Part shown: positions 6,001 to 44,985 of the stretch, piece by piece
Position numbering within the stretch: position 1 is the first letter of the stretch
Layout: the number at the start of each line of letters is the position of its first letter
Source: Telmatactis stephensoni
Taxonomy: Eukaryota > Cnidaria > Anthozoa > Actiniaria > Isophelliidae
DNA: 64,000 bases
Direction: 5' to 3'
NCBI GenBank assembly: GCA_029948255.1
Contig: JALIZF010001521.1
Coordinates: 186,001 to 250,000 of the forward strand
Notes under the pieces: model-generated
The model's database searches: none
Seen by the model: only the letters and a program-made list of their open reading frames with translations
Told to the model about the DNA's origin: nothing
Translations under genes and position numbers: made by a program

Positions 6001-6935
6001 ATAGTTGGTCTTTGCAATGCTTCTTGTCTATTCCTGTTCTAAAAAATCTTGGATGATTAATAGTCTTCAACACAAAAAGTACTGAGTATACCAGACATTG
6101 ACATCAATATATATGCACAATCTCTTTTAGGTACAATGTTCTTAGAAGTGCTCTGGAGGAAATCCAAGAAATTAAGAATCCAAGGCTTACCCTTGAGGTG
6201 TCTTTTTACGGTGAATGTGCACAGGATTCAGGGGGACCAAGAAGAGAATTCTTCAGGTTATTAATGAAAGAGATACAAACAAAGTATTTTGACAAAGGTC
6301 TCAAGGAACACTTGGCAGAAGACTACAAGAATGTGGGCTTACTTATGTCATTAAGTATCCTACAGAATGGTGCTATCCCAAGATTCCTTTCAGAGGACCA
6401 CCTCCAAGAGCTTTTCTGTTCAAGTCAACCCTCTGTGTGCATCAAGAATCTAAGGGAAGGTTATGCTCAACTAGGCCTATATCAAATTGGAAGGGATATA
6501 CCAGCATTCGTATATCTTTTCCGCCCTTCTCCTGCACATGATTTGTCCAGAAGGATGTTGATTCACCTACTGCAACCCAAATTCTCTGAAAATGCATCTA
6601 ACAGCAGAAGAGAAGAGAACACTGTTTATGACTCATTTAATAAATACTGCCGTGAAGTAGCAGCTGGTAGAAGGAAGGATATCTCTCTTAATCATATTCT
6701 TCAGTTTGTGACAGGAGCGGATGAAGAACCGCCACTTGGATTTGGAATCTCCCCATCAATCGATTTCCCAGAGGCAATAGGAGCTGAGCAATTCAATTTT
6801 ATGCCATTTGCAAATACATGTGCAAATATTCTACACCTCCCCAGGCCAACAATGGAGTACAAATTACCCAGTGAAGAATGCCTTTTTGAAATGTACGATT
6901 TAGCATTTGTTAATGCATTCTTTGGAAAAGTTTGA
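3070..6935 (+). CDS. HECT-type E3 ubiquitin ligase (transposon cargo)
   Basis: This gene encodes a protein related to animal G2E3-like HECT ligases, which move ubiquitin from an E2 to a substrate through a catalytic cysteine. Inferred exons: 3070 to about 3770, about 4203-4278 (acidic, run of Asp/Glu), 5181-5535 and 6131-6935; the last three have GT donors, AG acceptors and matching phases. Exon 1 has a Gly/Ser-rich leader, then a region of about 100 residues starting near ILLAGPNEDR that recurs in such proteins. The last exon gives a HECT domain of about 265 residues: FYGECAQDSGGPRREF, then DEEPPLGFG, then NTCANILHLP with the catalytic Cys codon at 6819-6821. A full HECT domain is nearer 350 residues, so the N-lobe is short. 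One apparent single-base frameshift near 3398 splits exon 1. The gene lies wholly inside the element at 2685-10243 and is convergent with its transposase. Confidence 0.82.
3881..4034. repeat. Hairpin MITE in the first HECT intron
   Basis: A 154-bp inverted repeat with arms of about 68 bp: ATAAGCCAATTCACACTGTT at the left and its near complement ending AAATTGGCTTAT at the right. It lies in the intron after exon 1 of the HECT gene. I see no clear target duplication. Confidence 0.7.
4466..5089. mobile_element. TTAA-flanked MITE in a HECT intron
   Basis: A 624-bp non-coding element with inverted ends GGTCATGCGATCGTGCATT / AATGCACGATCGCATGACC, flanked on each side by TTAA (4462-4465 and 5090-5093). 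A TTAA duplication is typical of piggyBac and Kolobok superfamilies; without a transposase I cannot choose between them. It sits between the acidic exon (ending 4278) and the exon at 5181 of the HECT gene, so it is a secondary insertion into the IS3EU-like element. Confidence 0.85.
5536..6130 (+). other. Last intron of the HECT gene
   Basis: The donor is GTATGT at 5536 and the acceptor TTTTAG ends at 6130. The codon for the Trp in the DWYN motif is split across the junction (TG at the end of the upstream exon, G at the start of the next). I see no gene or repeat inside. Confidence 0.75.
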
Positions 6936-8514: not shown

Positions 8515-9939
8515 TTATTCAAAAGTAAGAATAAGTGATCTTGCTGTGCAAAAGTGATTGATCCCTGAGTCTCCATCATCAGTTAGTGGATGTACAGCTC
8601 GTTGGAGTTCAGCTAGTTGATCATCTTCCAAGTTAAAAAGACATTCTGGAACAATGATGTTGTTGTCATCAGTTGTATTGTGTGGCATAACAATTTCGTA
8701 ATCAATCCCATAGCTCTGAAGTTCAGATACATCCTCAAATAGACTCTCAGCTTGGCTTGATAACATGCCAGAATTCCAAAGAGCGAGTGGTGACAAGTGT
8801 TCAGCTGTCCTTATTCCATGATAGTTCCATTGCTGAGTAAATTCACATAGTGATCTTGTAATTCGAGGGACAAAAATATAGTGGAGAATGAAGATGTCAA
8901 CTTCATTATTGGAATCAAGGATTCCATACTCTTCCATATGTTCAAATATTGCTGAATAGTAATGAGTTACCAAACGATTTACTTCCCCCCACAACCGTTC
9001 AATCCTTGTGTTATGTACACTTCTACCAGCTATGAAGCTACCTCTATTTGTGCCCCGACTATCAACCATTAATCGAGCTACATCCCAATTCTCAACTCCA
9101 CGGTCACCTCTTACTCGACTAGGAAGGCCATACTTTTCCACTCCTTGTTTAAAGAATTGTAATGCTGTTTGTGCTAGGTTATTGGTTGCGCATTCTAGAT
9201 GTGTTATAGTACGACTGTATCCATCAATACAGCCATGGATTACTATTCGCCAAGAGATCAGTTTATGATTGCCATCAATATGCCATAAGCAGTTGGGTGC
9301 TCTGACATTGTATACACGGCGCTGTATAGTACAACTTCTCCTAAATGCCCTTCCCACTGGGTCTATCTGTTGTAGTCTTTCCCTTACTCTCCTCCTCTGA
9401 ACAGTGATTCCCCTACTTCTTAAGCCTCCCCGGATGTAGGTTTCACCAGCACCTGGTGTGAGTGATGCTATTTCCTTAAGAACCGTGTCTAGCTCTGAGT
9501 CTGCTATTGTTGAAAAAGTGCGATTTATCCCGAATGCTTTCACACGACGGTATAGAGTTCTCTCACTTATGTTTAGACATTTTCCTATAAGTGACCATGT
9601 CAAACCACTGTCCCTAAGATTCAACAGCTATTCCCTTGTAATAACAAACTTTGGTCTTCCTGACGTTTTTTCTGTTGGAAGTTGATAAGTAGATTCCTGT
9701 TCTTCATGTACTTCAACATCTGAAGTGGCGTTCCATTTTTGGTACGAATAATCATACAGTGTTTTCAAAAGTTCAATGTTTGTGCTATTAGAATGACTGT
9801 TTTCAAGATCATAAATAAAACCAGACAGCACACCTAAGTGGTATTGTAATTCCCTTCTTCGATACTCCACAAACAGTGGGTCAGACGATTCTTCTAGTTG
9901 TTGCAAGACCTTATCAAAACTGGCTAAAAACTGCTTCAA
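8515..9939 (-). pseudogene. Integrase-type DDE transposase (IS3EU-like)
   Basis: This is the catalytic protein of the element at 2685-10243. About 473 codons from 9939 stay in one frame, broken by a single TAG at 9628-9630 where a Gln codon would fit (GRPKFVITRE, stop, [10 protein letters not shown]). In order: a helical N-terminal region; a helix-turn-helix near [18 protein letters not shown]; a second HTH-like region ([17 protein letters not shown]); and a retroviral-integrase-type core. The DDE triad is visible: Asp in LWHIDGNH, Asp in VRGDRGVEN and Glu in TRIERLWGE, with 34 residues between the second Asp and the Glu by my count. The gene is convergent with the HECT gene. All catalytic residues are present, so the nonsense codon may be recent, a read-through site or a sequence error. 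TTG or an internal Met could start a shorter product lacking the first 100 residues. Confidence 0.85.
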
Positions 9940-10993: not shown

Positions 10994-11019
10994 CACAGGG
11001 CGAAATACAAACTTTACAT
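10994..11019 (+). repeat. Left terminal inverted repeat of EnSpm element 1
   Basis: 26 bp, identical to the complement of 21752-21777, starting with the CACAG terminus usual for animal EnSpm elements. Confidence 0.9.
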
Positions 11020-11460
11020 GCTGATTAATGGTGTGTTAAGGTGTGTTTATGGACCCTTTACATACGTTTAATCAGCATGAGTAAAGCTATTAAAGGTATG
11101 TTTACATATCTTTAACATGTGGCAATTTATGATCAGTAGTGGAGGCTTTACTAGTTTCTGTTAAATGAATGTTAAAGGTCCATAAAGGTATATTTAAATG
11201 AATGAATAAATGTTGGTTAAATCAATACCAAAGGTACCTTTAATATGCTTTAATGCGATGATTGAATCTCTGTAAAGGTACCACACCTATATTTTGCTTT
11301 AATGCAGTTATCATAAATGTTCGTAAAGGTATCTTTCAACCCCCAGTAATATCCGTGTAAATGGTAGATTAAGACACCTTTACACACCTTTATAAAGCCA
11401 TTACTTTCATAGCTAATCTGATGTGTATCCTTTAATACACCTCATAGTTTTTTGCTTTTT
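11020..11460. repeat. Left subterminal repeat array of EnSpm element 1
   Basis: Dozens of copies, in both orientations, of a core like TAAAGGTA / TACCTTTA with variants (for example CTTTAATGC, AAAGGTACCTTTAATATGC). A matching array lies inside the right end. Such arrays bind the transposase in plant CACTA elements; binding here is inference. Confidence 0.75.
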
Positions 11461-11913
11461 AGCAAAAATGTACTGGCAGTTGAAACGGTTGATTACTTTA
11501 GTTTAAAAGAGTCGCATAAAAGAACAACAGCTACTAAAGTTAAAAAAAATTTATTTTGAACTATATATTTTCTTATATGATACAAGAGGCAATCAATGAG
11601 TATGATACATGAGTCATCAATAACTAATTTACAGTAAGTGACTAAGGCAATAATAACGATTATTAACTTGATCTTTTGACAAAGAGACTGTCGAGTACTG
11701 TGAGCATTCTATTATCCGGTTTTCGGGAGTGAAAACGACGAAATGAGAATACCGGAACTAAGTTCTTTTGTTCATGACGAAATGCCATATAATAAACGAT
11801 TTATTGACTTCACTTGCTCACTTGGTCTTTTTTGTACGCTGCGCTCGGTCCGTACTGTCAAGACCTCGGTCTGATGTTTCCCCGTACAGACCTCGCGCTC
11901 GGTTAATATTCTC

Positions 11914-13888
11914 TTAGTATTGGTATGCCCAATCAGGGCAGTCTTGGGGCTTTCTCCTTTGAGATGGAAATGCCCCAATCTTTCTTGGTAAAACCCTCTT
12001 TTTAACTAAAGAAGGCAAAGAAGCCATGTGGTGTTTATCGAGCGACTTCTTTGCCTTCTTTAGGTCCTGGCTTTCCCACTGCAATGGCTTCACTGTATAC
12101 GAAATTGTCCGGTAAGGAGCCTCGTCCTATACGTCGCTTTCTTCACTTGACATGTAGTCAAGTCGCAAACAATCAGCAATTTTGGCCTTTTTTTCAGGGG
12201 TCCAGTTTGACTTTCCATCAAGGCTTTTAAGTCGTCGCCCAAGTTTCTAAAAAAGAATTTTCAAGTAATTAGCTACGCTTAAATATTTATAATGCAGTCA
12301 TTCTTAGTTAAGTTACTAAGCAAACATTTTAAAAATAAGAATTGTGCCGAACTTTTACCTCTTTCTTCCTGTTTTGTCTGCGACATGATCTGACGTGTTC
12401 TTCCTGCTTGCCCGAAACCCTTCTCTTCTCGCTAGCTTTCAAGGACCGCATATAGGTCTTGAGGGCAACTATAAAGAAATCAAAAGGCTAGGTATTAGCT
12501 TATATCTAATTGGAACTAATTGGAAACATATAGAAGCAAAATTTTTAATACCGGATTTGTATCGGGCTAAAACAATTTAATTTTCCGTCTCTTGATATGT
12601 GTGGTCCAACAAACAAGGCACCGCGCGTAAGCAATCAAAAAGATGCTTTCTGAGACATAGACGTACCTTTCATTTGGACAACAGTCCATGGACACTTGTC
12701 AGCTCCACCGTAGGAGTGATATATTTCGTCTCTCGTCCTGTTAAAGAGCATGAGGTTGTGCTCTGAGTCATGGCTACATAGTGAAAAGAAAATGAAACAT
12801 ACGCATTAATCAGCAATATTTCAACTTAATCATTTTTATGATTTTATCAAGCGAAGCTTGTTGTTTCTTATTTTAAGATAAAAAAAAAATATTTGAAAAT
12901 TTACCTTTCATCTAAATGTAAGGATAAATTATCGGGATCAGTAGCAGCCATTCTTTTGAGCCGTTGACGAACATCGTTCTAAAACAAAGCAAGGGTCAAT
13001 GTAAGAACAATAATCAAATAAGAATGCAATTAACAAGCAAAGCCAATGAAACAACTTCACTTTAATATGTTTCATAAGACTCGCTTTGTTTACTTTAATC
13101 ACACACAGACTCATTTAATTAACTTAAAATGTTTGCTTTGTTTATGCTAATTCAGTATGTCTTTTACTCTACTGTCCCGTAAAGGGATGTACTGTATTAT
13201 AAATCGAATAGCACGATATACGCTGATTTTCGTTGCCGGTAAATTTGCCTTTTTTATCCGTAAAAGCTTTTCTGTTCACAGGGTAAAAAAATAAATGAAG
13301 GAAGAAGAAATCAGAGTGCCGCAAAATGATTTAGAGTGGACAACGAGGCAAGCTAGAATTTAAAGTAAACAAATGCAATTTTAGGCGGGAACTGAAAGCG
13401 CTCAACTTTACTGTCCAGTAACAGGCTGAATCAAAGTACGCGATATACGCTATTTTAGTTGCTGCATTTGCCCCTTTTTATAAGCATTTTCACCAAACAA
13501 TTAAGCAACACACGAACATCTTGAGCGAGGCAGATAAACAGGATAAATTATCTTGTGCTTCAGTTTAGGCGGGAGCGAAACACGGTTGACTTTCCGCTAC
13601 GAGTCAGTGTACGTATGTAAAAGAAAGAAAATAGAGTTCGCTACTTACACTGCACATCTTCGGCACTTTAACAGCGGCTCCTCCAGTTTGACGGACTCGT
13701 CCTCCTACAGGTCGCGAACTTACGATCCTGTCTACCTTGGAAGAAAGGTCATCCACCTTCTGGGATAAAGCTTGAAGGGCAGCCCTATCTTGAACTTTAT
13801 CTCCTTTAACTTCGTCTTGAAGGGACTTGCTTTCGTCCACTACTTTCTGTAGCAGAACGACTTAGTGATCGGATAGTGAAACATCCAT
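11914..13888 (-). pseudogene. Conserved accessory gene of EnSpm element 1
   Basis: Five exons can be traced on the minus strand: 13888-13649, 12978-12905, 12773-12667, 12468-12359 and 12246-11914, each with GT donors and AG acceptors; the phases that could be checked fit. The first exon gives a coiled-coil-like segment (LQALSQKVDDLSSKVDR). The last exons give LGRRLKSLDGKSNWTPEKK, then DYMSSEESD and VKPLQWESQDLKKA, ending DWAYQY. I remember this C-terminal pattern (YMSSEESD, PLPW-type, a CPxW-like end) from repeated cnidarian proteins of unknown function. A TAA nine codons after the first ATG and a TAG after YMSSEESDV suggest decay. Position next to Tnp2 inside CACTA ends suggests the second element protein, perhaps equivalent to the DNA-binding TnpA of plants; that role is inference. 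Confidence 0.65.
13164..13590. repeat. Diverged ~240-bp tandem duplication
   Basis: Segments around 13164-13404 and 13405-13590 share the same order of motifs: TACTGTCC, CGATATACGCT, TTTGCC, GAGGCA, then TTTAGGCGGGA. They are diverged copies of one unit lying in the first intron of the accessory gene. Confidence 0.5.
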
Positions 13889-14436
13889 GATACTCAGTTT
13901 GATATACACTACTAGCTAATATTAAACGATACCAGTGACAGCGGAAACAGTCAGGCAGGACTAAATAGAGAGCCTGAGTGAGTTGGTTTCATGACATCAA
14001 TTCAATTCATATTTTGGTGGGAAAACTGATGATTGGCTCGTCATACTATCAAAAACAAATATGAATTTGTGAGGAGTAGTGAGTTTCAAAATCACGACAC
14101 AAACATAATCATTTGAAATGTCTTGGGGTTGCTGGAATCACGGCTTCTTTTTCTTCAGGCTACGTAATGTTGACAACTCTTCGTAAATTATTATAAATTG
14201 CCGAACTGTCTCACTTTGAGAGCAAATGAAATGGCTTTTTAGCTCTTATGGGGGGAGGGGTCAGGAAAGGGTAAGATATGCGTGCGCAGCCATCCATGCG
14301 ATCGATTCTTGATCTTGTTCATAATTTGCATCTTGTTGGAAGGAAAGAAGGCAAACTAAGTTTTATCTAGACTCAGAATTTCGATTTTATTTGGTCATTT
14401 TGTGGGTGGAAATATCGTGTTGCAAAACTGGTTGAA

Positions 14437-17400
14437 ATGGCGCATTTTAGCCAGGTATTTCACAAGGCGAGTGACTCACTTGCCACAAGTGGAGTGCAAC
14501 ACGAGCAGGGATTTGATTCACTGCCACCGAGGAATGCCAAACAAAGACGACTTTCCCGCGCAAATACAAGCGATGAAATAAGAGCCAGAAGACGAAAAAG
14601 AAAGCAAAGAAAGCGTAAAGAAGATAGAATATTATCCAAGAAGGAAAGGAAACAGTTAAAGGCAGAAAAGATTGAGGTGAAAAGGAGAAAGATTGAAGAG
14701 TTCATAGAGCAAAAGTCAACATACGCCATTGAGCAGCGCAAGAGAGCGATTTATTTTTGGAAGAAATGGCACCAGCAGCGAAAATCAGATGATAGTGAAT
14801 ACACGTGAGTTTATGTACTACATTTGCACAGAGAATTTATGACGATAATATTAATATTTTGCTGTTTGGATTTGTTTAAGAGATAGTGATGTAAATCAAT
14901 TACATGATCGAGTTACATGTGGCTGGTAGTTTTCTTGTTAAATTGATCCTGAATATAGCTTAGACTAATGATTAATTGAGATTAATTCAGTGAATTAGTA
15001 TTTGTTACTAGAAAGAAAAAGAAGGAAAGTTAATTGATTAATTGAAGTTTTGATCTGATTATCACTTAAGTTTTAAAATGAAGCTTAATTTATCCTTTCA
15101 GACAAATACGTCAAATTGAAAGAATAAACATCAAAAGTTTATCACAAGAACTCAATCTTGGCGAGGGACGATTTGGAGAATGTAAGAAGAAGCTCTACAG
15201 AGGGAACATTGTTGCAGTGAAATACTTCAAAGAATCTGTTACCCCTCAAATGGTTAAAAAAGAGGCCAAACTCATCAATTCTTTTGATCACCCAGGTATG
15301 CATTAAAATTAAATAAAGCTTTGTTTTGCAAACTAGGCATACATTTAGAAGACTTCATCTACAAGCACTCAGTGTAGCCGGTATGTCAAGCTTGGAAAAA
15401 TGGAAATGGAAGGAGAGGGAGAAGGGAAAAGGAAAAAATATAAGCCTTTAATCCAATTTTGAGAACGTGCATTGATATATATGTTATATGTAGTAATCTA
15501 ACTAAACACACTGCTGTCATGTTCAGAGCATCAAGCCTAGACTGAAATGAATGCTGGTTTTATGCCAGTAATGTATTAAAAACACACTTCTTTCTATTGA
15601 ACTAATTTCAAAATGTGAGCATTTTCAAGTCCTTGTTAATTTGCCACATTGATTTCTATTTATTTGAACTGTGACAATGTTGTCTGAAACTAGTGTATAC
15701 ATATAGGTTATTGGTCGACTAACCAGCTAATACAGCTGTGTATTTTTACGAGTCACGCTGTATTTTGGCGAGCCTTTAGGCAAGCCAAAATGCAAGTGAC
15801 AAGTGACTTTTTTTTTGCGCTCGCTTTGCACCGGGAAGCCATTCAAATGTTATTAACCTAATACGGTCTCATATTTTTTTGCGTTCTTGTGCACACTATG
15901 TGCATTCTTTTGAGAATTGTTTAATAAATTAGAATTATAATTTGGATTATACATGTAGAATTATATATTGTATACAGTGTATACAATCATTGTATATTTG
16001 GTTAACAAGGGTCAAAAGCTCTCTAAGAAAGATAGTAATTTACCTATACTTATAAATGACAATTTATTAATTCACAACTCCTGCTAAATATCAAATATGT
16101 CACTTAGAAATATTCTTATTATGAAAAAATGAATAGCATCCTCAACATATATGATCATTTTTATCACTGTACAATAACAAGCTAGCAAATTAAGGATATA
16201 TATATATTTATTATACAATTCTCAAAAGAACGCACATAATATGCACAAGAATGCAAAAAACATAAGACCATATTAGGTTAGTAACATTTGAATAGCTTCC
16301 TGGTGCAAAGCTTGGAGCTAATCAAAGTCAAAAGTAGCAATAAAAATGACATCATTTGTATTGATTTTTGCAGAATTGTATAATAAGTATGTTATTGGTT
16401 GATTAACCAGGGAATACAGCTGTGAATTTTTACTTGTCGCTTGCATTTTGGCTTGCCTAAGTAGCTTGTGACAAAAAGAGTCTAAAACCCCAAATTGAAA
16501 TGTGGCAATAATTTAAATAACTATTGTTTTGGTCTGACTTGCCTCTCACTTATGTTCAAAACACTTTTATTTTTCTGTGTGAATACAAGGCTGGTCAGAC
16601 CAGAACAGTAGTAATTTGTTATTCAATGTAATCAAGCCCAAGGGGGGAGGGTACTCAACCCCCTTTTGGATAGGGTGTGCTGCCAGATGTCTAGAAACCT
16701 GACCCTGTTTAAGACAATTATTGAAAGTGAATAAATTGTATCCTCTTCAAGACAAGAAAATAATCAACCCTCCGATCCATTGCATATGATTAGACAAAAA
16801 ACAGCTGAGGCACTTTTTTTTAATTTTGAATATAGTACCCTATCTAAGACACAGAAAGATGATATGGCTTGGGATCTCATCAAAACTATAGATCCTGTTT
16901 AAGACAATATTTTTGGTAAAATGTATACCCTGTTCAAGACAGCAGGGCCAAAAACCATACCATTTCCAGTGGCACATACCCATATAGCAAATGTATGGGA
17001 GTATCCCCCCCCCAGGGATATCAAGTCTAAAATTGAAAGTCAGTCTAATATTACTGTTAGGCCTAGTTCAAACGTTGCATCTCATATGTGTCGAATGCGT
17101 TGCAAATGAGATGATAATGATAGAAACAAAAGATTTGTCTAATTTGCATTGAATTCAGCACATGTGAGATTCGACGTTTGAACTAGCTGCCTTAGCTTGT
17201 TGAGATGTCTTTCAAGTATAGTATGTTTATTTCACTGTCCTTTTTTCCAGGACTGCCATTTGTATATGGTATATCTACTACTGAGAAACCATATGCTATG
17301 ATCATAGAATTCTATGGCATTGATGGTAAAAATATCACATTAGCCAAAGGTGCAAGGACCAATCTACTTAAGGACCAAAAGAATTGGGCTGAAAGTCTTT

Positions 17401-17810
17401 GGCATTGTGCTCAAGCAATTGCCTACCTACATGAGAGACAATATATACACTGTGATATCAAAGGTGACAATATAGTATTTCATGCCAAAGGGAATAAATA
17501 TATTCCTATCTTGATAGACTTTGGTAAAATGAAAAAGATAAATTCCACTAGGAAATACACCTTGTCTTTAAAAGAACAAGAAACTTACAGGTCTAAACAT
17601 AAACATGTTGCACCAGAGGTCGTAAGAGGAACTCACGCCCACTCCACAGCTAGTGACATATATGCTTTTGGGCTTGTGTTATCACTCATATGCCATTACA
17701 ATAAGTATGAGGACATGAGACTTATTGCTGTTCAGTGTATTCACGGAACCCCACATAAAAGGCCAGGAATTGAAAATATTATTTCTAAGCTTTTCATAAT
17801 TTTTGGTTAA
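14437..17810 (+). CDS. Protein kinase carried by EnSpm element 1
   Basis: A complete three-exon kinase gene inside the CACTA element. Exons 14437-14804, 15102-15295 and 17251-17810 join in phase and give 373 residues. Residues 1-120 form a very basic leader (RARRRKRKQRKRKE, then a helical Lys/Arg/Glu stretch), possibly nuclear targeting. The kinase domain follows: glycine loop GEGRFGE (143-149), VAVK with Lys163, helix-C Glu in KKEAKLI, catalytic loop HCDIKGDN with Asp256, DFG at 277-279, APE at 308-310 and SDIYAFG. Every residue needed for phosphotransfer is present and there is no stop or frameshift. The loop sequence HCDIKGDN suggests a Ser/Thr or TKL-type kinase; the substrate is unknown. 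It is transcribed opposite to the transposase. The second intron holds a large inverted-repeat element (15709-16480). Confidence 0.88.
15709..16480. repeat. Composite inverted-repeat element in kinase intron
   Basis: Inverted arms at about 15826-15935 and 16208-16318 share GAAGCCATTCAAATGTTA..., ...TGCGTTCTTGTGCA and TTTTGAGAATTG with their complements. In addition a direct repeat (GTTATTGGT, AACCAG, AATACAGCTGTG, TTTTTAC) occurs at 15709 and 16391, outside the arms. It may be a non-autonomous element flanked by duplicated sequence or two overlapping insertions. Confidence 0.55.
17063..17186. repeat. Short MITE-like inverted repeat
   Basis: Ends CTAGTTCAAACGT and ACGTTTGAACTAG frame 124 bp, with CATCTCATATG near the left end matched by CATGTGAGAT near the right. 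It lies just upstream of the last kinase exon. Confidence 0.6.
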
Positions 17811-17828
17811 AAAAGTTCAAATCTTTAA

Positions 17829-17863
17829 ACAAGAAAGAAAGAAAAAGAAAGAAAGAAAGAATT
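17829..17863 (+). repeat. (AAAG)n microsatellite
   Basis: Run of AAAG/AAAAG units shortly downstream of the kinase stop codon. Confidence 0.8.
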
Positions 17864-17989
17864 AGAAAAAGGAATCAATTGCTAAACATATTTAGATCTA
17901 TTAGACTTGTTTTTGATCAACTGGCAATTTTATGTTAGGTAGTCATTTTTACAGTCATTATTAACACAAATTATTCAAGGAATTGATAA

Positions 17990-20900
17990 TCAGCAGAAAT
18001 GCTTAATTAAAGAGCTGATAACATATCTTTGTCTACCACTGTCATTTAGCACTGTAGCATGGCAACATTTAGATGATATTTTCTGTACAGGAATAAATCT
18101 TGATGGTCCTCCAGGAAAAGGGACGTCTTTGCATGCAACCATAAGGGGGTTAAAACTGGCATAAATTGTATCATTGCATGACGGGTACCAGGTTACACAG
18201 GCAAAAATGTGTTGACTATAATTTCCATCTAGAACCAGTGAATGTGCAAAAAAATAGTCAACAGTTCCAAATGTTACATTTGATGTACTGGGGTCAATGC
18301 TGCCATCATAACATGGCCATGCTGTTGATCTACTGCTTCTGTGGGCCATCTTTGAACCAAAGTCAAGACCATAAATGTTCATTGTGCCATACTTATTGAT
18401 GCATCTACTTAGATGCTCTAGTGAAATGCTTTTGCTGGGAAACATTAGTTTATATACTTGTAATAGAATACCTGTATCTTCATCATCTAGTAACACTTGC
18501 CTATAGCTTGAGGGCATAACTGCAGAAGTGTTGAACCAGTTAATATCACATAGTGGTAGAGATTCCATCTCATAGTACTGTAGTCGATCTAAAAAGGATT
18601 TGCTAGTATCACAAGGGTTTTGGTCTTTGGTAGAGTCATGAATTGATTCCGTTATGTCACTAAACAAGGGTTGGAAGTCTTCAGGCAAAGAAACGCTTTC
18701 AAGAAATTTTGATGTGCAGAGCTTCCTCATTAACTGTAGTTCTATAGAGATGTTATTTGTAGCAATACTTCCCACAATGCCATTATAACGTTCGAAGCTA
18801 AAACACCAGAAACTTTGTATTGGCCCATAGTCCTCAATAACGTCTTTCAAGTGACAATGCAGATGCATGTTAGGAGTGATGGCTTTGTTTCCATATAATG
18901 ACTGAAATTCTTTACAGAACTTTAACAGTAAGCCATCTGCTTTTAATACATCCGCGTTTGAAACAATAGGCTTACAGATATACCTGCATGCTAAAGTGAA
19001 AGTTTGCCAGCACCTTAAATGTTCAATTCCAAGTATGCCTTTCAAAGCAAACAGGGAATACAATGTTGTCCAGTTTTTCCATTGTTCAGCAGTGTATGTG
19101 CCATAATTTGCAGAAATATTTTTTGGCAGTCTTCCAAGGTGGGGCGGTACATCCAGTTCTTCTATTCTACAGTCAATTTTTTTCAATTGTTGGTTGCTAA
19201 GAATACCTTCATTGATCCACAATTTGAAGACATACTTGGCTGTACCCAGGAATAAATTATGCATAGGATCTATGGCACAAAATCTTATGGCATCAAAGTA
19301 TTCAAGGTCAAGTAAGGATGAATAAAATGCTATGCCATACTTTTTCGAAAGTTCCTGAGCCTTCACTCTTGTTTTGCAATTTTTTATTTTTTTTCGCATA
19401 TTTTCTGTGATCTCTGTTCGTTCGACTTTGCCATTTGCTGCGTTCAAACCCAGAATAATCTCGCTTCTCTCCAAAATTACCAGGAAATTTTTTTAAGCAT
19501 CGAGAACAACCTAATTCTCCACTATGTCCTTTAAAGCCACAAAGTTTTCTTGCCGCAGGGATATCTGACGATGTGCAGAGAATGGCCGCTCGAAACTTGA
19601 GGGGAATTCTTGTTATGCTGTTCTTGATATAAATTCCCGACCATAAGGCATTGAGCTCACTTATGGCAGGCTTCAAAAATTCATTCAGTGTTTTTGGCTC
19701 GTGTTTCATTGATGGAATTATTCCTACCACTATGACATTTCCCCACTTGAATCGTTCTGATCGGGGTAGATTTAAAAGAACAAGATATAGTATACCGACA
19801 GAATAATCTTTTCTTCTTTTCATGGGTTGAAAAAAATCAAAATTCAGCATGAAGCCATAATTCCTAGGGGCATCCAGAAAGGCCTTTCCATCAAAGGTTT
19901 TAAAGTCTTTCCAAAGCTTACCGTCATAAATATCTGTCATGAAGGAGCCACTGTGGTCTCTTTGTCTCCAGTCTTCACACCTCTCTGGAAGAGGTTTTTT
20001 CTGGACAAGATTTTCAAGGGGGTTTATGACACCATTATAGCAATAGTAATGGATTGGATAGAATTTAACGGTCTTATTCTTGAGGGTAACTTTCTTGACA
20101 AGGGGACTGTTACATTCATGGGGTCTTCCTCTTTTATATGATATGTTAGTGCAATGCCTTCCAACAAGACGACCATTTACATTAGCCAAGCATTCATCGT
20201 ACTTATAGCATTTTGTGCATTTGGGACAAACAACAAACTTTGTAAAATTGTCTCTGTCTAAGTTCAGATACTGTCTTACCATGTACAGGGAACAAGGAAA
20301 TGCAGCGATTAAATCTGTCAGGATTTCGTTGGAAATGTGGACATTGAGGGCTTTTAAAAACTGAAGAAAAAATCTCAACAGCCAAGTTAAACCGTTATCG
20401 CTGAGATGACAGTAGCTTTGCCAGATAAGCAGGAAATACAGGGTCCAGTGTAACAGAGATTGTACCACTTGAAACCTCTTTTTAGGCTTTGGTTCTGGTA
20501 AAGGGTCTGGAGTCTCAATATCTTCATTAATTATCGCTTCAGGGACATCATCCCAAAATTCATGTTAGAATGTTAGAATCACTTGATTCGTATTCTTCTT
20601 TTTCGTTGTTTTCTATAGTGTCATCAATATCACTATCATAGACTCCACTTTCAACCTGCAAGAAATAAGTTTCATATTTATATCTAATTCAGAATCAATT
20701 GCACTTGTATACTGCGATAAACTTTATATATACTGTGTTAGACATTTAGCAACTGACTTGACTTAATATTTTGAATGTATATACAATGAACAGCTGTTAT
20801 AAACATACTTACAAACATCTCGGAATTAACTTCATAATCATGTTGGTCGCCGTCTTGTAACGATATTGCAGCGCCAAGAGAATCAGTTTCAGAGTCAGAT

Positions 20901-21043
20901 GATGAGGTGTCTTCTATAACTGAACGGTGCGTTATACCAACAGCTTGTCTCGAGAATAAATTCATGTGTCGTCTGTATGTGGACTCGGAAACATTCTCGT
21001 TACAGTGCGAACAATATATATACCCAGGCGGAAGATTATCCAT
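17990..21043 (-). pseudogene. Tnp2-type transposase of EnSpm element 1
   Basis: This is the transposase that would cut and join the CACTA ends. Exon 1 (21043-20813) starts MDNLPPGYIYCSHC, a Cys/His finger, and ends with a good GTAAGT donor. Exon 2 runs 20655-17990. It shows a Cys-rich segment (CPKCTKCYKYDEC), LGCSRCLKKFPGNF and the family hallmark IDPMHNLFLGTAKYVFK, followed by a long C-terminal region (HLHCHLKDVIEDYGPIQSFW). Two lesions are visible: an in-frame stop near 20565, beside a short tandem duplication of CTAACATT, and a frameshift between about 19390 and 19340, after which the frame is open for nearly 490 codons to the stop at 17990. The protein is therefore broken in this copy although both parts are well preserved. 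It is divergent to nothing else in the element and points toward the kinase 3' end. Confidence 0.82.
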
Positions 21044-21369
21044 AGCAATTCGTGAAATCAGAAAGTAGTTAAAAGTAAAGCAGCACATAAAATGTAGAAC
21101 GTATCTGGACAACAAGAACCGATAAACAATTGAGTATGATCTGGTAAGGACGCTAAAATGTTTGTTTGTAACATAGCAACGATATGTTACCAACAGCAAC
21201 GTGATGCTAAAATGACAGCTAGGAAGCCGGCGTATGAAACCAGTAGAAAGCTAGTTCAAAAAACCTGTAAGACTTCAAACTACAACTTAATTTAGTTACA
21301 TTTATATAATTTAATAAATGATTTTGAAAACCTAGCCTAGTATGTAATTGTAATTGCTTTCGCAATTCA

Positions 21370-21751
21370 GATTATACAAGGTCTCTTTAAAATCTTGTTA
21401 AAGATGTGTAAAGGTAACTTTAGGTTTGTATAATACATTGCGTAAAGGCTTGTTTTGGTACACTGGGGACCGTTTCGGAGTATACCATAACAAACCTTTA
21501 CACAATGTGCTATACAAACCTAAAGGTACCTTTACACATCTTTAATACAACAGTAAATGAGATTTTTTCCTTCTATACCTTTACTTCCCTTTAATAATAT
21601 TTATTAGGTGTGATTAAATGTTGGATACATTTAATCTGCCTTTGCGATGTTGATAAAGGAGAGTAATGCCGAGTTTGATTTAATCATGTTTAAATTATGG
21701 CTTAAAGGGACGCAAGATACCTTTAGCACATTTAATGCACTGATTAAAGGT
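21370..21751. repeat. Right subterminal repeat array of EnSpm element 1
   Basis: Mirror of 11020-11460: repeated TAAAGGTA / ACCTTTA / TTTAAT units in both orientations, including the palindrome-like pair CACAATGTGC and AAACCTTTACACAATG near 21490. Confidence 0.75.
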
Positions 21752-21777
21752 ATGTAAAGTTTGTATTTCGCCCTGTG
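21752..21777 (-). repeat. Right terminal inverted repeat of EnSpm element 1
   Basis: 26 bp, perfect complement of 10994-11019, ending CGCCCTGTG. Confidence 0.9.
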
Positions 21778-28735: not shown

Positions 28736-29118
28736 ATGTTGGGACAACAAAATCCCAGCAATATCCCAACTTCGGGAATTTGTTGTCCCAACAATAACCC
28801 AACATAAGGAATTTGTTTTCCCAGTAATAACCCAACATAAGGAATTTGTTGTCCCAGTAATAACCCAACATAGGGATTTTAATGTCCCAGTAATAACCCA
28901 ACATAGGGATTTTAATGTCCCAGTAATAACCCAACATAGGGATTTTAATGTCCCAGTAATAACCCAACATAGGGATTTTAATGTCCCAGTAATAACCCAA
29001 CATAGGGATTTTAATGTCCCAGTAATAACCCAACATAGGGAATTTGTTGCCCCAGTAATAACCCAACATAGGGAATTTGTTATCCCAACAATAACCCAAC
29101 ATAGGGAATTTGTTGCCC
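28736..29118. repeat. 33-bp minisatellite (left subterminal array)
   Basis: About eleven tandem copies of a 33-bp unit containing AATAACCCAACATAGGGA. Because 33 is a multiple of three, two minus-strand frames stay open across it (186 and 136 codons) and would give an 11-residue Trp/Cys-rich repeat. I treat those frames as a by-product of the array. Confidence 0.88.
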
Positions 29119-29378
29119 CAACAACTTTTCTTAATTCTAGAAATAGAAGCATGGCAAACAGTAAAATAATTTGAATCTCTTTACTGAAATTCTTGTAAAC
29201 TCTGAAAATAACATCATTTGTTTGCACTTGTGACAATGTCATATAAACAATTTCAACAGACTTTTCCTAACGGTACTTTGACACATTGTAAATTACAAAA
29301 TATCGCTTGTTTGCACTTGTGATAATCATATAAACACAACATACACTCTCTCCTAACTTCAATTACTTTTAATTTCAA

Positions 29379-31718: not shown

Positions 31719-34700
31719 ATGAATCGACAAGATGACAAAGATGAATTCGATGTTGAATTTTGGTCAAGAAAAGAAGTATCATCTTGCAACTGTACTGCAT
31801 TGTCTTATAGACATGTTCATTGTAGGTGTTATCGCTGCAAAGGAAGAGCCATTACAAGAACAACAGAACTTCGGCATTGGAGAGAAGCTCGTTTATCATC
31901 TTCATTTTACAACTCAAAAGAGGACGATGCTTTTGGAGGAAATACATGTACCAGTGGAGAAAATAAAACACCTTATGTCCAAATGGAAACAGCTGAAAAT
32001 AACAATTAACAGGCATTTGAAATTGATGAAGATATGTTAATAAACCACGACACAACATGCAGGGAAAATGATATGGACGATGACTCAGACGATGAAGAAA
32101 ATCAAGGAAACCCATATAAAAGACTTGTTACAAAGGCTGTTTTACAAGCAATGACTATTATGGATAGTAGTGGGTCTTCAATTAAAACATTCGAAGATAT
32201 TTTGAATTATGGAAAAACAATGTTATTTAGTAATCTTGATCCAGATGTTGATGAAAATATTTTGTCTTCTCTATGGCCAAAAAACTGGTTGGAAGTACAG
32301 TCTCTTTTGAAGGAAGAGGGATTCTCTGACCCGAAGGAATATTATGTTTGTATTTGTCGAGAGGAGAACGTTTTAACAAGAAATGGAAAGACAACTAAGA
32401 AGTACCAGTATTCCAATAAGTGGAGTATTATGGAGAGCAAAGATGAGCTTTGCCCAAACTGTGGAAAATGTGGATACATTAAATATTACTACCTAGGTTT
32501 ACATGAAAAGCTAAAGAACTGGTTTCGGAATCCAGGAATGTGTAGAAAAATGCTATCCCATTGGAATGAAAGAGAACACTGGTTGAGGAGAAACACAAGT
32601 TGGCCCTTAAAAAATGAGATTTGGGATGGGGAAAGATGGTCACAATTGCAGTGGTTTTGGGACCACAATCAATCATGGACTCTCCCAGCAAGGTGTGTGG
32701 AGTGCCTCGCTGTTATTTCACCAGACACTATCAATTCCTCTCCCAAAGATAATAATGATATGTCATTGCTTGAGTGTCCTGAATGTTTAAAAATGTTTAC
32801 ACATAAAGCTGAAGTGGCTAGGGGTTCTCCTTTGAATATATCATTGATTGGACACTGGAATGGATGGCAGCCATTCAGTACCAGTTCCAGAAGTTGTGGT
32901 TCACTTTCAATAGGAAATATGTACAAGGCAGATAGATCACATGTTAATGAAGTTTATGTTATTGGTTTTGTCCCATGTACTTCTGTACCAAAAGGTGTAC
33001 CAGAGGTTTATGACCCATTTATACAACCACTTATTGATGACCTTTGTGAAGGCTTTATTCATGGGTTTCAAGTGCCTTATCCTTCAAATATTACTGTTCC
33101 TGACTTTGAAACACATGAAACTGAAACTGTGCGTGTTATGTTACTGTGCTGGATGGCGGATCACCCCGGACAGTGTGAGTTTGGAAAGTTTTTGAACCAA
33201 GGAAAGTGTGGTTGTAGAAGATGCAAAGTGATTGGTCAACAAGGTCTTCTATCAAACGACTACTACTATGGTAATAATCGTTTTCATACTAGGTATCCAT
33301 GGGAAAAAAGAGATGTCACAGCAGAGGAGATTACATTTTTTGATCTTGATAACAAAACCAGAACAAGTGTAAGAAAGCAGCTTTTTTCAGAGAAGGGGTT
33401 TACTGGAACTCCATTCTTTCATAAATATTTGTATCCCCTTTATAAGTTTGATTGTTTATATCACATGGTTTATGACATTTTCCATACACTGCCACTAAAT
33501 ATATGCAAAAACCAAGTTCAGAGACTACTGCAGCTAGATTTATTAGATACTTCATATTTAGATGAGCATATTACACAATTTCCTTGGAGCAGGGAACTGA
33601 AACAAGGACGTATTCCAACTGCAGTTGGCAAAGAATGCAAAGGCCTTCGACATTGGAAAGCCGAATCATTTCAAAAAAATTATTTTTCCAATGCTAGAGT
33701 GCATTGTAGAGGATAAGATCTCAAACGTTAAAGAACTTGAAATTATAAGCCTAGTTGCTCGTTTAACAGAACTGCACTTTTGTAGTGGAAGAGATGGATG
33801 GACGGATACCATGATAGAACTACATAGGAGACTGGCACAAACACTAAGCATAAGAATTGAAGAGACACAAGGGCTTGAAATGTGCACCATTTTAGTACAC
33901 AACATAACACATGCCCATGAAGATCTAATAAACTTTGGATCATCAGACAACTACTGGTGTTCTGTATTTGAAAGAGCTGTCAAAGAATATGTGGGACGCT
34001 CACATAACTGTAAAGGACTAGAGATGACATTTGCTAAATCAGAATGCAGAAGAGAAAGATTGAAAAGTTTGGAGCAAGTGCATAGTGTTGTCCCCCTCAA
34101 TGAAGGTTACCAAATGATTCAGGTAATTAATAGATACATATTATTTTAAGTATTATTGACCACTGATCAATTCATTCATTCATTTATTTATTATCAGGGG
34201 ATTGTCAAGTCTGAGGATGAAGCCAGGAAAGTTTGTACAGTGAATGAATATGATGCATTGCTAATTGGCTCAACAAGGAATGTTGTAGAGTTAACAGAGG
34301 ATGAATGTTTTGAAATAGATTGTCTCTTATCCCTCCCACAGCCTGTTGCATCAGTATCTAGAATTGCATCTACTTCTAAGAGATGTTTCTTAAGTAATGT
34401 TGGATTTAATGGCACAGTCTTATCAAGTCATGAAAATATTGTTGTTTTATTGGGGGACAGTGAATGCATTGTTCAGATTAACAGGTTCCTGCTGATACGA
34501 TATGGAGAGAACAATCAAGATATATTAATTGAAGGTTTTATTATACCATTTAACAAATCCTTTGAAGGAGAAATTGATGTTAACTTTTGGAGTGGCTTTT
34601 TCAAAGTCCAATTAAAACCCAATGACAATACAGCATTCTTTTTAGCTAAGAGTGTAAAGAGAAAGGTGATGTTGTACAAGCATGCTCAGACAAATCTTCA

Positions 34701-35013
34701 AACAGTTGTTGACTATGATAGACGGCTGAAAGATGTTCCAAACCTTTTGGTTCCTGTGTACCCAGTAAAAGATGACATGTTGTTGATTCAAGGCGAGAAA
34801 CAAAGGGATATTTGGTATGGAAGAGTGTTAAGTGTGGATTTGTCCAAAAAAGAAGTGGAAGTGCATTTTTTTGTGGAGAAACAACAGCATCCAAATAGAT
34901 TTGTTAGAGAAAGCTTTTCAAGACAAGCAAGAAACACTGTGATTTTTGATTCCATACTTGGTATTGCAAATGGCCATTGGATGAGTGGAAGCACTTGGCA
35001 AAAGTCTATTTAA
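31719..35013 (+). pseudogene. Tnp2-type transposase of EnSpm element 2
   Basis: Plus-strand transposase gene. The N-terminus (from 31719) has a conserved Cys-rich motif, SSCNCTALSYRHVHCRCYRC. After an in-frame TAA at about 32008, the frame reopens and gives CPNCGKCGYIKYY, LECPECLKMF, SLIGHWNGWQPF, KCGCRRCKVIGQ and the Tnp2 landmark FDCLYHMVYDIFHTLPLN. A frameshift in an A-run near 33672 is followed by the continuation to DLINFGSSDNYWCSVFERAV and an exon ending at 34122. An intron (34123-34197, GTAATT...TTATCAG) leads to the last exon 34198-35013. The long A-run makes the frameshift a candidate sequence error, but the TAA argues for decay. It is divergent from the accessory gene with about 170 bp between them, a probable shared promoter. 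Confidence 0.82.
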
Positions 35014-43324: not shown

Positions 43325-44034
43325 CTACTCTCTCTCCACCCTATTGGGGGCAAGGCAGACAAAATCTAACTCATAGTTAAAAGAAACAAAAACACATAAA
43401 GACACTATACTTGAAATGGGAAATGCAAACAATTTGCTTGTACACTTAACTGGAACGATGTGATGTACTTTGGCATTCGTGAATTTGTCCCGAGACAATT
43501 CAAGTTCTCCCTTTTCCAGTTTTTTTTTTTTTTTTGCAACAGCTAGATAATGCGGTGTGCTGCAAATGCCACATGGGGCCGAATTTCTACAAAAAATTGG
43601 ATTACCACATTTGACAAAAGCTTTCACAAAATATTGAACTGAAAAATATTGTGTACAATCTTCTACTAAAGCAGAAACAGTGTAGTTGTTGCGTTTTGTT
43701 ACAGGCTTATAATCTTGACTATGGTTTATTTCTCCATTTAAAAATATTCGTTTGAATTTCAAAATACTTGTTTCTTTCAGTTGCCCAATTGCTTTTTCAA
43801 CTACTGTCTTGTCCTGGCCAGTGATAAATAAAAACAGGACTGTGACCAAAGTGGGCCTAGATCCTTGACCTTTTGGACTAAATGAAGAAGTGAATGACAG
43901 TTAGAGGTTTCATATCGTTTGCCATATAATGCTGACATATTTAAACAAAAATGTTTCAAAAGTAAAGAGGCCTTTTGTAGATCAGTGCCAGAGATGGAAT
44001 CTTGAAGTAAAATATAATTTGCTTCTACTAACAA
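43325..44034 (-). pseudogene. Tnp2 transposase C-terminal remnant (EnSpm-like copy 3)
   Basis: Minus-strand reading gives LKHFCLNMSALYGKRYETSN, SLLHLVQKVKDLGPLWSQSC, then after a frameshift near 43830 ITGQDKTVVEKAIGQL and a C-terminal tail with CGNPIFCRN and PCGICSTPHYLA. The HSLLHL...DLGPLW...SCF pattern is the part of Tnp2 that follows the PMHNLFLG region. The N-terminal two thirds are absent: upstream is unrelated sequence with a tRNA-like element. Confidence 0.7.
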
Positions 44035-44367: not shown

Positions 44368-44439
44368 GGCTTCATAGCTCAGTTGGTAGAGCACCGCACC
44401 GGCATCGCGGAGGTCATGGGTTCGAATCCTGTTGAAGCC
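44368..44439 (+). tRNA. tRNA-like sequence, probable SINE head (GGC loop)
   Basis: A 72-nt cloverleaf: acceptor GGCTTCA pairs with TGAAGCC (7 of 7), D-arm TAGCTCAGTTGGTAGAGCA with a good A box, and T-arm GGGTTCGAATCC (B box). The anticodon stem has a mismatch and the loop reads CCGGCAT, giving GGC (Ala) but with C rather than U at position 33. The atypical loop, no CCA and a downstream tail (AATTTTTTCGGGCTC...) that I remember as repeated in coral transcripts point to a tRNA-derived SINE head rather than a working tRNA gene. Confidence 0.65.
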
Positions 44440-44985
44440 CCAAATTTTTTCGGGCTCTTCAAATGCAATTGCCTAAATTGCTCACATTTCCACGATGATC
44501 ATTCATTATTTCATAGTTGCATTACCACGGATCAATCCATATGTATATACACACTCTTGGTCATCTGGCCTGTGGGGTAATAGTTGACAACAAGGACAAC
44601 TGCATGGCTCAGGTGATTTTGGTTCAGGGTTGACGTTATCTGTGCTTTGTTTTGCTACAGATATCAAAAAGAATTGAGACTGAATAAAAAAGGGTAATCA
44701 ACATTAAATCAAGTACATAGCAACAATAGAACACTAGAAAATTCTTGAATGTGAATGGTTGTTAGCCTTGCATTCGGACAACTAACTCTCAGTTAATCAT
44801 GGAGATGCACGCAGGCTAGAATATTGTGTACAATAAAATACATCATTAAATTAACAGGCCTCATTTTTATCATTTTCTTTAGAATTTTATAAAGTCATCG
44901 ACAATCTTATGAGCTTGTGAGCTTCCTACATATCAAATTGAAAAGTTACGCAAAAGTTAACTTACGTCGTATTCAAAACTCATTC

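Follow-up and report, generated by a model that had tools for sequence, protein, structure and literature searches.

A kinase gene within a CACTA-type element

The window analysed here is a stretch of 64,000 nucleotides from Telmatactis stephensoni, lying on a contig designated C438. It contains a CACTA-type element of 10.8 kb (positions 10994-21777) that encloses a protein kinase gene. The element is delimited by terminal inverted repeats on the left (10994..11019, + strand, beginning CACAGGGCGAAATAC) and on the right (21752..21777, - strand), which match perfectly over 26 bp, or over 27 bp if the next base is counted. The end motif is found exactly twice in the window, in inverted orientation, against an expectation of 0.07 matches. 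Inside the repeats lie subterminal regions (11020..11420 and 21390..21751) carrying the 8-mer TAAAGGTA, with five copies in the left 0.45 kb, six in the right 0.4 kb and none in the 9.9 kb between; two more occur in the 53 kb of the window outside the element. As the 8-mer is present at both ends and absent between them, the ends are attributed to one kind of element.

Two further genes flank the kinase, both on the opposite strand. To its left is an accessory gene (12050..13889, - strand) with several exons delimited by eye from the translation and two in-frame stops; its first exon matches sequences on three other contigs (C673, C151, C132) with 38-41% identity and E-values of 1e-17 to 1e-18. 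This gene is arranged head to head with the kinase, with 547 bp between the start codons when the accessory start is placed by eye. To the right is a Tnp2 transposase gene (17990..20564, - strand) that matches the Pfam domain Transposase_21 (PF02992, E=1.6e-16, 60.6 bits against a cut-off of 28.6) and whose frame is broken twice, at about 19.39 and 20.57 kb. It is convergent with the kinase, tail to tail, with 179 bp between the stop codons. Its best relative is 70% identical over 86%, and Paramuricea is represented among the Tnp2 matches. A possible 5' exon of Tnp2 (20738..21250, - strand) is suggested by an open frame only, which has no Pfam match.

The Tnp2-type transposase, the terminal inverted repeats and the subterminal motif repeats at both ends place the element in the CACTA / En-Spm superfamily. 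Inverted repeats in this superfamily typically begin with CAC, and the literal CACTA is found in only part of it; it is absent from the ends CACAGGGCGAAATAC of the present element. The ends of an Aedes element are given as CCCAGTCAAC in PMC1636069. The target duplication of 2-3 bp was detected at two other copies (C673 and C151) but not at the window copy, where the bases beside the ends are TGG and CAT. The missing duplication would suit a reading in which a kinase gene of the host lies between two insertions that are unrelated to each other. Against it stand the subterminal repeats, common to both ends and absent between them, and the copies described below leave it a negligible probability.

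The sequence-only reading of this locus had stressed that an intact kinase sits beside broken neighbours. The description is accurate, but the contrast is not remarkable: four lesions in about 3.4 kb predict 1.3 in the kinase, which would escape all of them with a probability of 0.26. Intactness beside broken neighbours was accordingly rejected as evidence of selection. A nested insertion bringing the kinase into the element was also considered and rejected, as the stretches flanking the gene have no direct 9-mers in common and only A/T-rich inverted ones.

Several other features were recorded in the window. A second, more distant Tnp2-like gene lies in pieces at 32010-35013 (+ strand); its Transposase_21 match, with E=0.0018, does not reach the curated cut-off, and no kinase relative was matched beside it. 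A small Tnp2 fragment at 43831-44010 (- strand) is 36-47% identical to relatives among the matches listed. There is a 370-aa open reading frame (ORF) with an integrase core domain at 8515-9627 (- strand; rva_4, PF24764, 1.7e-78), a 277-aa ORF with a HECT ubiquitin-ligase match at 6102-6935 (+ strand; PF00632, 3.2e-06), a 33-bp tandem repeat of 11 copies with two open frames at 28753-29120, and a tRNA match at 44368-44440 (+ strand; Rfam, 58.5 bits).

The kinase gene and its predicted product

The kinase gene (14437-17810, + strand) consists of three exons that join in phase across GT/AG borders, free of lesions, and encodes 373 amino acids followed by a stop. Exon 1 (14437..14804) encodes a basic N-terminal region, exon 2 (15102..15295) the glycine loop and catalytic lysine, and exon 3 (17251..17810) the catalytic loop, DFG, APE, the C-lobe and the stop codon; the latter two are supported by a 17-row alignment of relatives in addition to the joins, and exon 3 also by Pfam. 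The second intron contains inverted repeats at 15704-16460, perhaps a small nested element. The protein matches the Pfam domain Pkinase (E=7.9e-28) and possesses the motifs GEGRFGE, HCDIKGDN, DFG and APE, and in the 17-row alignment Lys163, Glu177, Asp256, Asn261 and Asp277 are nearly invariant. The complete kinase domain and its catalytic residues identify it as a eukaryotic-type protein kinase, which bears out the earlier description of an intact three-exon kinase inside a CACTA element. All five kinase motifs tested were also recovered in two relatives within the same genome (C673 and C459), and four of the five in a third (C244, APE unmatched). The residue preceding the catalytic aspartate is a cysteine, which makes the enzyme a non-RD kinase. 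As it has HCD in place of HRD, it probably lacks an activation-loop switch.

The N-terminal 135 residues contain 39 Lys/Arg against 18 Asp/Glu. When compared alone with 39 relatives, they match three (P0032, P0001 and P0009, E 4e-24 to 4e-15), two of which are Dendronephthya proteins; the remaining 36 gave no significant match to this region. A structure model of another relative, P0017, built from a 27-row alignment (pLDDT 88, pTM 0.70), has a 73-residue helix (14-86) followed by a full kinase fold. On the basis of the complete catalytic residues, the Lys/Arg-rich N-terminus and the long helix modelled in P0017, we infer that the product may function as an active nuclear protein kinase.

Copies of the element in the same genome

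The kinase is a regular component of this element. Searches covered the 483.5-Mb assembly of 1782 contigs, in which a 14-base end motif gave 13 matches on 10 contigs and the reversed control gave none. Element genes were detected on five of these contigs, and all five (C438, C118, C151, C673, C132) carry the kinase; in four of them (the window, C118, C151, C673) matches were obtained to the ends as well as to the genes, which lie at a different site each time and in one constant order. The kinase is enclosed by the two ends of a single element, and its transposon-borne nature, proposed from the window alone, is supported by these contigs.

The C118 element is 97.8-99.8% identical to that of the window, with similarity starting at the outermost base on the left, and the flanks are unrelated. 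Its right terminus is damaged, and the sequence compared omits about 0.4 kb close to this terminus. The C118 kinase has an open frame, with two synonymous and three nonsynonymous differences from the window, and the C118 Tnp2 is free of the frame breaks seen in the window. A diverged subfamily is represented by C673 and C151, where a pattern search located the end motif and tblastn the three genes (for the accessory gene, its exon). Their kinase is 54% and their Tnp2 63% identical to those of the window, and the three genes follow the window's order. The two copies are 99.7-99.8% identical to each other, with similarity starting at the element end and differing flanks, and have 3-bp target duplications (TTA/TTA at C673, CTA/CTA at C151); the second element end was located at C151. 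In C673, Tnp2 is a single frame of 901 aa and the kinase is open beyond its second ATG; kinase exon 3 of C151 carries an insertion. The two subfamilies share one gene order, in which the kinase adjoins Tnp2 tail to tail and the accessory gene head to head. Since the whole unit recurs at another site with other flanks in C118, and likewise in C151 and C673, the reading of a host gene caught between unrelated insertions is ruled out, and the kinase is not peculiar to the window copy, being found in C118, C151, C673 and C132.

The other contigs with the end motif are less complete. The C132 contig breaks off within the kinase, after the accessory exon, kinase exons 1-2 and part of exon 3. Here the end motif is 8.6 kb away from the kinase, across sequence that was partly covered, and 7.8 kb away from the accessory exon, compared with 2.9 kb in C673. 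On the remaining five (C18, C341, C378, C404, C464), kinase, Tnp2 and the first accessory exon are absent from the 3 kb inward of the end motif; in three, the match to the known ends extends for 110-843 bases, and two share the motif only. No kinase appears among the matches listed for these five; as their second ends were not found, kinase-free elements are possible there.

Further Tnp2 lineages and kinases in other surroundings

Pairing of the kinase with Tnp2 extends beyond these two subfamilies. Among the matches listed, equal kinase scores were obtained at four places (C244, C1564, C188, C476). Two of them, C244 and C1564 (loci L054 and L055), are 99.6% identical over 5.9 kb, being recent copies or possibly haplotypes, and have the kinase tail to tail with Tnp2. 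On C459, the kinase is likewise convergent with Tnp2, with 2.5 kb between. Element ends were not found for C244, C1564 or C459. Of six loci picked later from the kinase search, five have Tnp2; the remaining one, on C132, stops short of where Tnp2 would lie. Across the four lineages (window, C673, C244/C1564, C459), kinase identities of 30-54% accompany Tnp2 identities of 39-63%; the two are correlated (r=0.92, p=0.01; rank correlation 0.77, p=0.07) over six non-independent pairs, with the third lineage represented by the C244 kinase and the C1564 Tnp2. These values suggest that kinase and Tnp2 have diverged roughly in parallel.

Related kinases are also found in other surroundings. The kinase protein matches at least 115 stretches of the genome (exons rather than genes, with 110 of 1251 candidates scored). 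Nine family kinase loci of 9.9 kb each were picked from a Pfam listing before their neighbours were known, and a Tnp2 match was found at one of them, compared with none of 11 non-family kinases. At seven of the eight family loci without Tnp2, ORFs that look mobile to us, and may be so, adjoin the kinase; an integrase-like ORF was also noted by eye at L020, a non-family control.

Some of these neighbours recur. An ORF of 660-770 aa with a CEPMHDL motif adjoins the kinase at three loci (L021:6893-9124, L022:7096-9087, L026:467-2782), the L021 and L022 versions being 45-46% identical to that of L026. A Pfam scan of the L021 and L026 ORFs gave no match; to our eye the motif resembles the DPMHNL motif of Tnp2, and the ORF is perhaps a distant transposase. 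Three other loci share a 160-aa ORF (L028:6210-6692, L030:7108-7593, L033:6686-7186) with 29-36% identity and no Pfam match. L030 and L033 also have related ORFs (L030:8914-9900, L033:8628-9899), with a Ulp1-protease match in L030 only. Judging from these shared ORFs, the three loci possibly constitute another type of kinase-bearing mobile element. At L029, a DUF7869 domain adjoins the kinase.

The abundance of kinase stretches, the lack of a Tnp2 match at eight of the nine first loci and the variety of mobile-looking neighbours would all agree with a host kinase family that has spread through cnidarian genomes and been taken up repeatedly by transposons as passive cargo. We regard this as quite improbable, given that the same kinase-Tnp2 arrangement and roughly parallel divergence are seen in four Tnp2 lineages, that the kinase is on all five contigs with ends and element genes, and that its protein appears to have been under deep constraint (see below).

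Kinase family and origin

Protein databases contain 38 proteins that match the window kinase. An organism is named for six, all cnidarian: Dendronephthya (twice), Montipora, Pocillopora, Desmophyllum and Exaiptasia. In a 47-row tree, which was built without P0009, P0027, P0030, P0032, host kinases of the same genome or a reference kinome, the family forms one clade of 36 (support 100/99) that is set apart by a stem of 1.13 from the 11 other kinases, which were taken from the lower end of a search listing. The clade includes a public model from Pocillopora verrucosa named 'cyclin-dependent kinase 1-A-like'. Two of 227 fetched proteins, P0027 and P0030 from other sources, combine pieces of both kinase and Tnp2. 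They may be gene-prediction or deletion products, but they place the two genes near each other in sequences beyond the window.

The sequence-only reading called for a kinase tree to find the donor family. The tree shows a well-separated clade; in structure and profile searches for a donor, no kinase group stands out. Among the 50 listed fold matches, the nearest solved structures are 16-23% identical to the kinase. By profile, the nearest are 7t6f, a Src-Abl ancestor, B-Raf, TAK1 and ABL; we take 7t6f to be a JAK-type tyrosine kinase and the Src, Abl, B-Raf and TAK1 structures to be TK/TKL-like kinases, which makes such kinases the nearest solved structures to the window kinase. Searches of IMG/VR with the window kinase, the window Tnp2, a coral-type Tnp2 (P0163) and a 19-base end pattern returned no loci, and the kinase profile A2 returned 14 distant kinases whose best segments are 24-46% identical. 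A search of prokaryote contigs with P0017 gave no related loci.

The suggestion that the kinase was captured recently from the host is not supported, given its separate clade (36 of 47 rows), the N-terminus that it shares with two Dendronephthya proteins and its divergence roughly in parallel with that of Tnp2. It is the pairing with Tnp2 in further lineages and this parallel divergence that lead us to treat the kinase as an old resident gene.

Selection on the kinase

The evidence for selection depends on the depth of comparison. Between the window and C673, the kinase has pN 0.316 and pS 0.80 over 361 codons, and Tnp2 has pN 0.19-0.27 and pS 0.79-0.92; synonymous sites are saturated at this depth, and so exact dN/dS values are unobtainable. 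The protein was likely constrained during much of the divergence between window and C673, to judge from these proportions. Comparisons of recent copies (window-C118, C673-C151, C673-C132) gave no sign of constraint on the kinase: C673 and C151 differ by one synonymous and four nonsynonymous codons, and C673 and C132 by none and six. Few and mostly nonsynonymous changes of this kind are as expected for decay after insertion.

It is conceivable that the kinase is an inactive passenger in the window copy and that only its ancestors worked. The broken neighbouring genes and the preponderance of nonsynonymous changes between recent copies favour this reading. We consider it rather unlikely, as the kinase has an open frame in the window, in C118 and, counted from the second ATG, in C673. 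The probabilities that we attach to the alternatives in this article are not mutually exclusive.

Proposed role

We conclude, with some confidence, that the kinase is a long-standing resident gene of a CACTA-type (Tnp2) family which most likely regulates transposition by acting on element proteins or chromatin. Its targets would most likely be the element's own proteins, Tnp2 and the accessory protein, or alternatively the chromatin bound by them, and their phosphorylation would set the timing or strength of element movement. The control of the Mos1 transposase by host PKA makes it plausible, by analogy, that an element's own kinase could tune a transposase, an accessory protein or chromatin. 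If the kinase was indeed kept until synonymous sites were saturated, phosphorylation would seem to pay for the transposon.

A resident kinase could instead act on the host, for example in anti-silencing, the cell cycle, DNA repair, or selfish addiction or drive of the Spok kind. This is in keeping with the basic N-terminal region, which suggests a nuclear protein, and with the location of Spok genes, which combine nuclease and kinase domains, inside the giant transposon Enterprise (PMC12693581). We judge a host-directed role unlikely. No nuclease or toxin-like domain was detected among 39 relatives scanned with Pfam, in which ten models matched, namely kinase or kinase-like phosphotransferase models, YrbL-PhoP_reg (four members) and Transposase_21 (one member). 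The window kinase itself matches only kinase-type models up to E 0.1, a nuclease domain of the Spok kind being absent.

Regulation by a resident kinase may extend beyond one element family. Tentatively, and with the balance of probability slightly against it, we propose that the whole cnidarian kinase clade is transposon-encoded. The kinase would belong to the regular gene set of more than one family of DNA transposons, both CACTA/Tnp2 elements and those that have other large ORFs or a Ulp1-like protease. It would have been passed down together with the transposases over long evolutionary times, and the elements would use it to regulate their transposition or host silencing. If true, viral kinases would have their counterpart in transposons. 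Counts of expanded kinase families in coral and anemone genomes may partly include mobile DNA. Tnp2, the accessory protein, the kinase and the ends provide a defined gene set for testing the benefit of phosphorylation.

Comparison with known systems

A kinase in a CACTA element is not described among the open-literature matches listed, and a Repbase entry is possible; we file the kinase-bearing element as a new form of CACTA element. SmTRC1 of Schistosoma reportedly encodes a Tnp2-type transposase. According to PMC1636069, it resembles the window element in belonging to the CACTA / En-Spm superfamily and in having short inverted ends and short target duplications. The present family differs in its 3-bp target duplication, compared with 2 bp in seven of 14 SmTRC1 copies, in ends that read CACAG, and in having the kinase gene as a constant component; the main text on SmTRC1 (PMC1636069) nowhere uses the word kinase. 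Enlarged En/Spm elements with four to five ORFs in the red alga Chondrus crispus, as reported in a review (PMC6431247), are likewise multi-gene CACTA elements, but a kinase is mentioned nowhere in that review.

Two other systems offer parallels. Spok in the fungal Starship transposon Enterprise is, like the window kinase, a kinase-domain protein carried by a transposon; the transposon is of another type, however, and Spok, which has a nuclease domain, acts as a toxin-antidote driver (PMC12693581). The Mos1 transposase is phosphorylated by host PKA, which blocks assembly of the transposase complex and its nuclear entry (PMC3902898). Both cases would join phosphorylation to the regulation of a transposase and nuclear entry, with the difference that the kinase acting on Mos1 is the host's PKA, whereas that of the window is encoded by the element itself.
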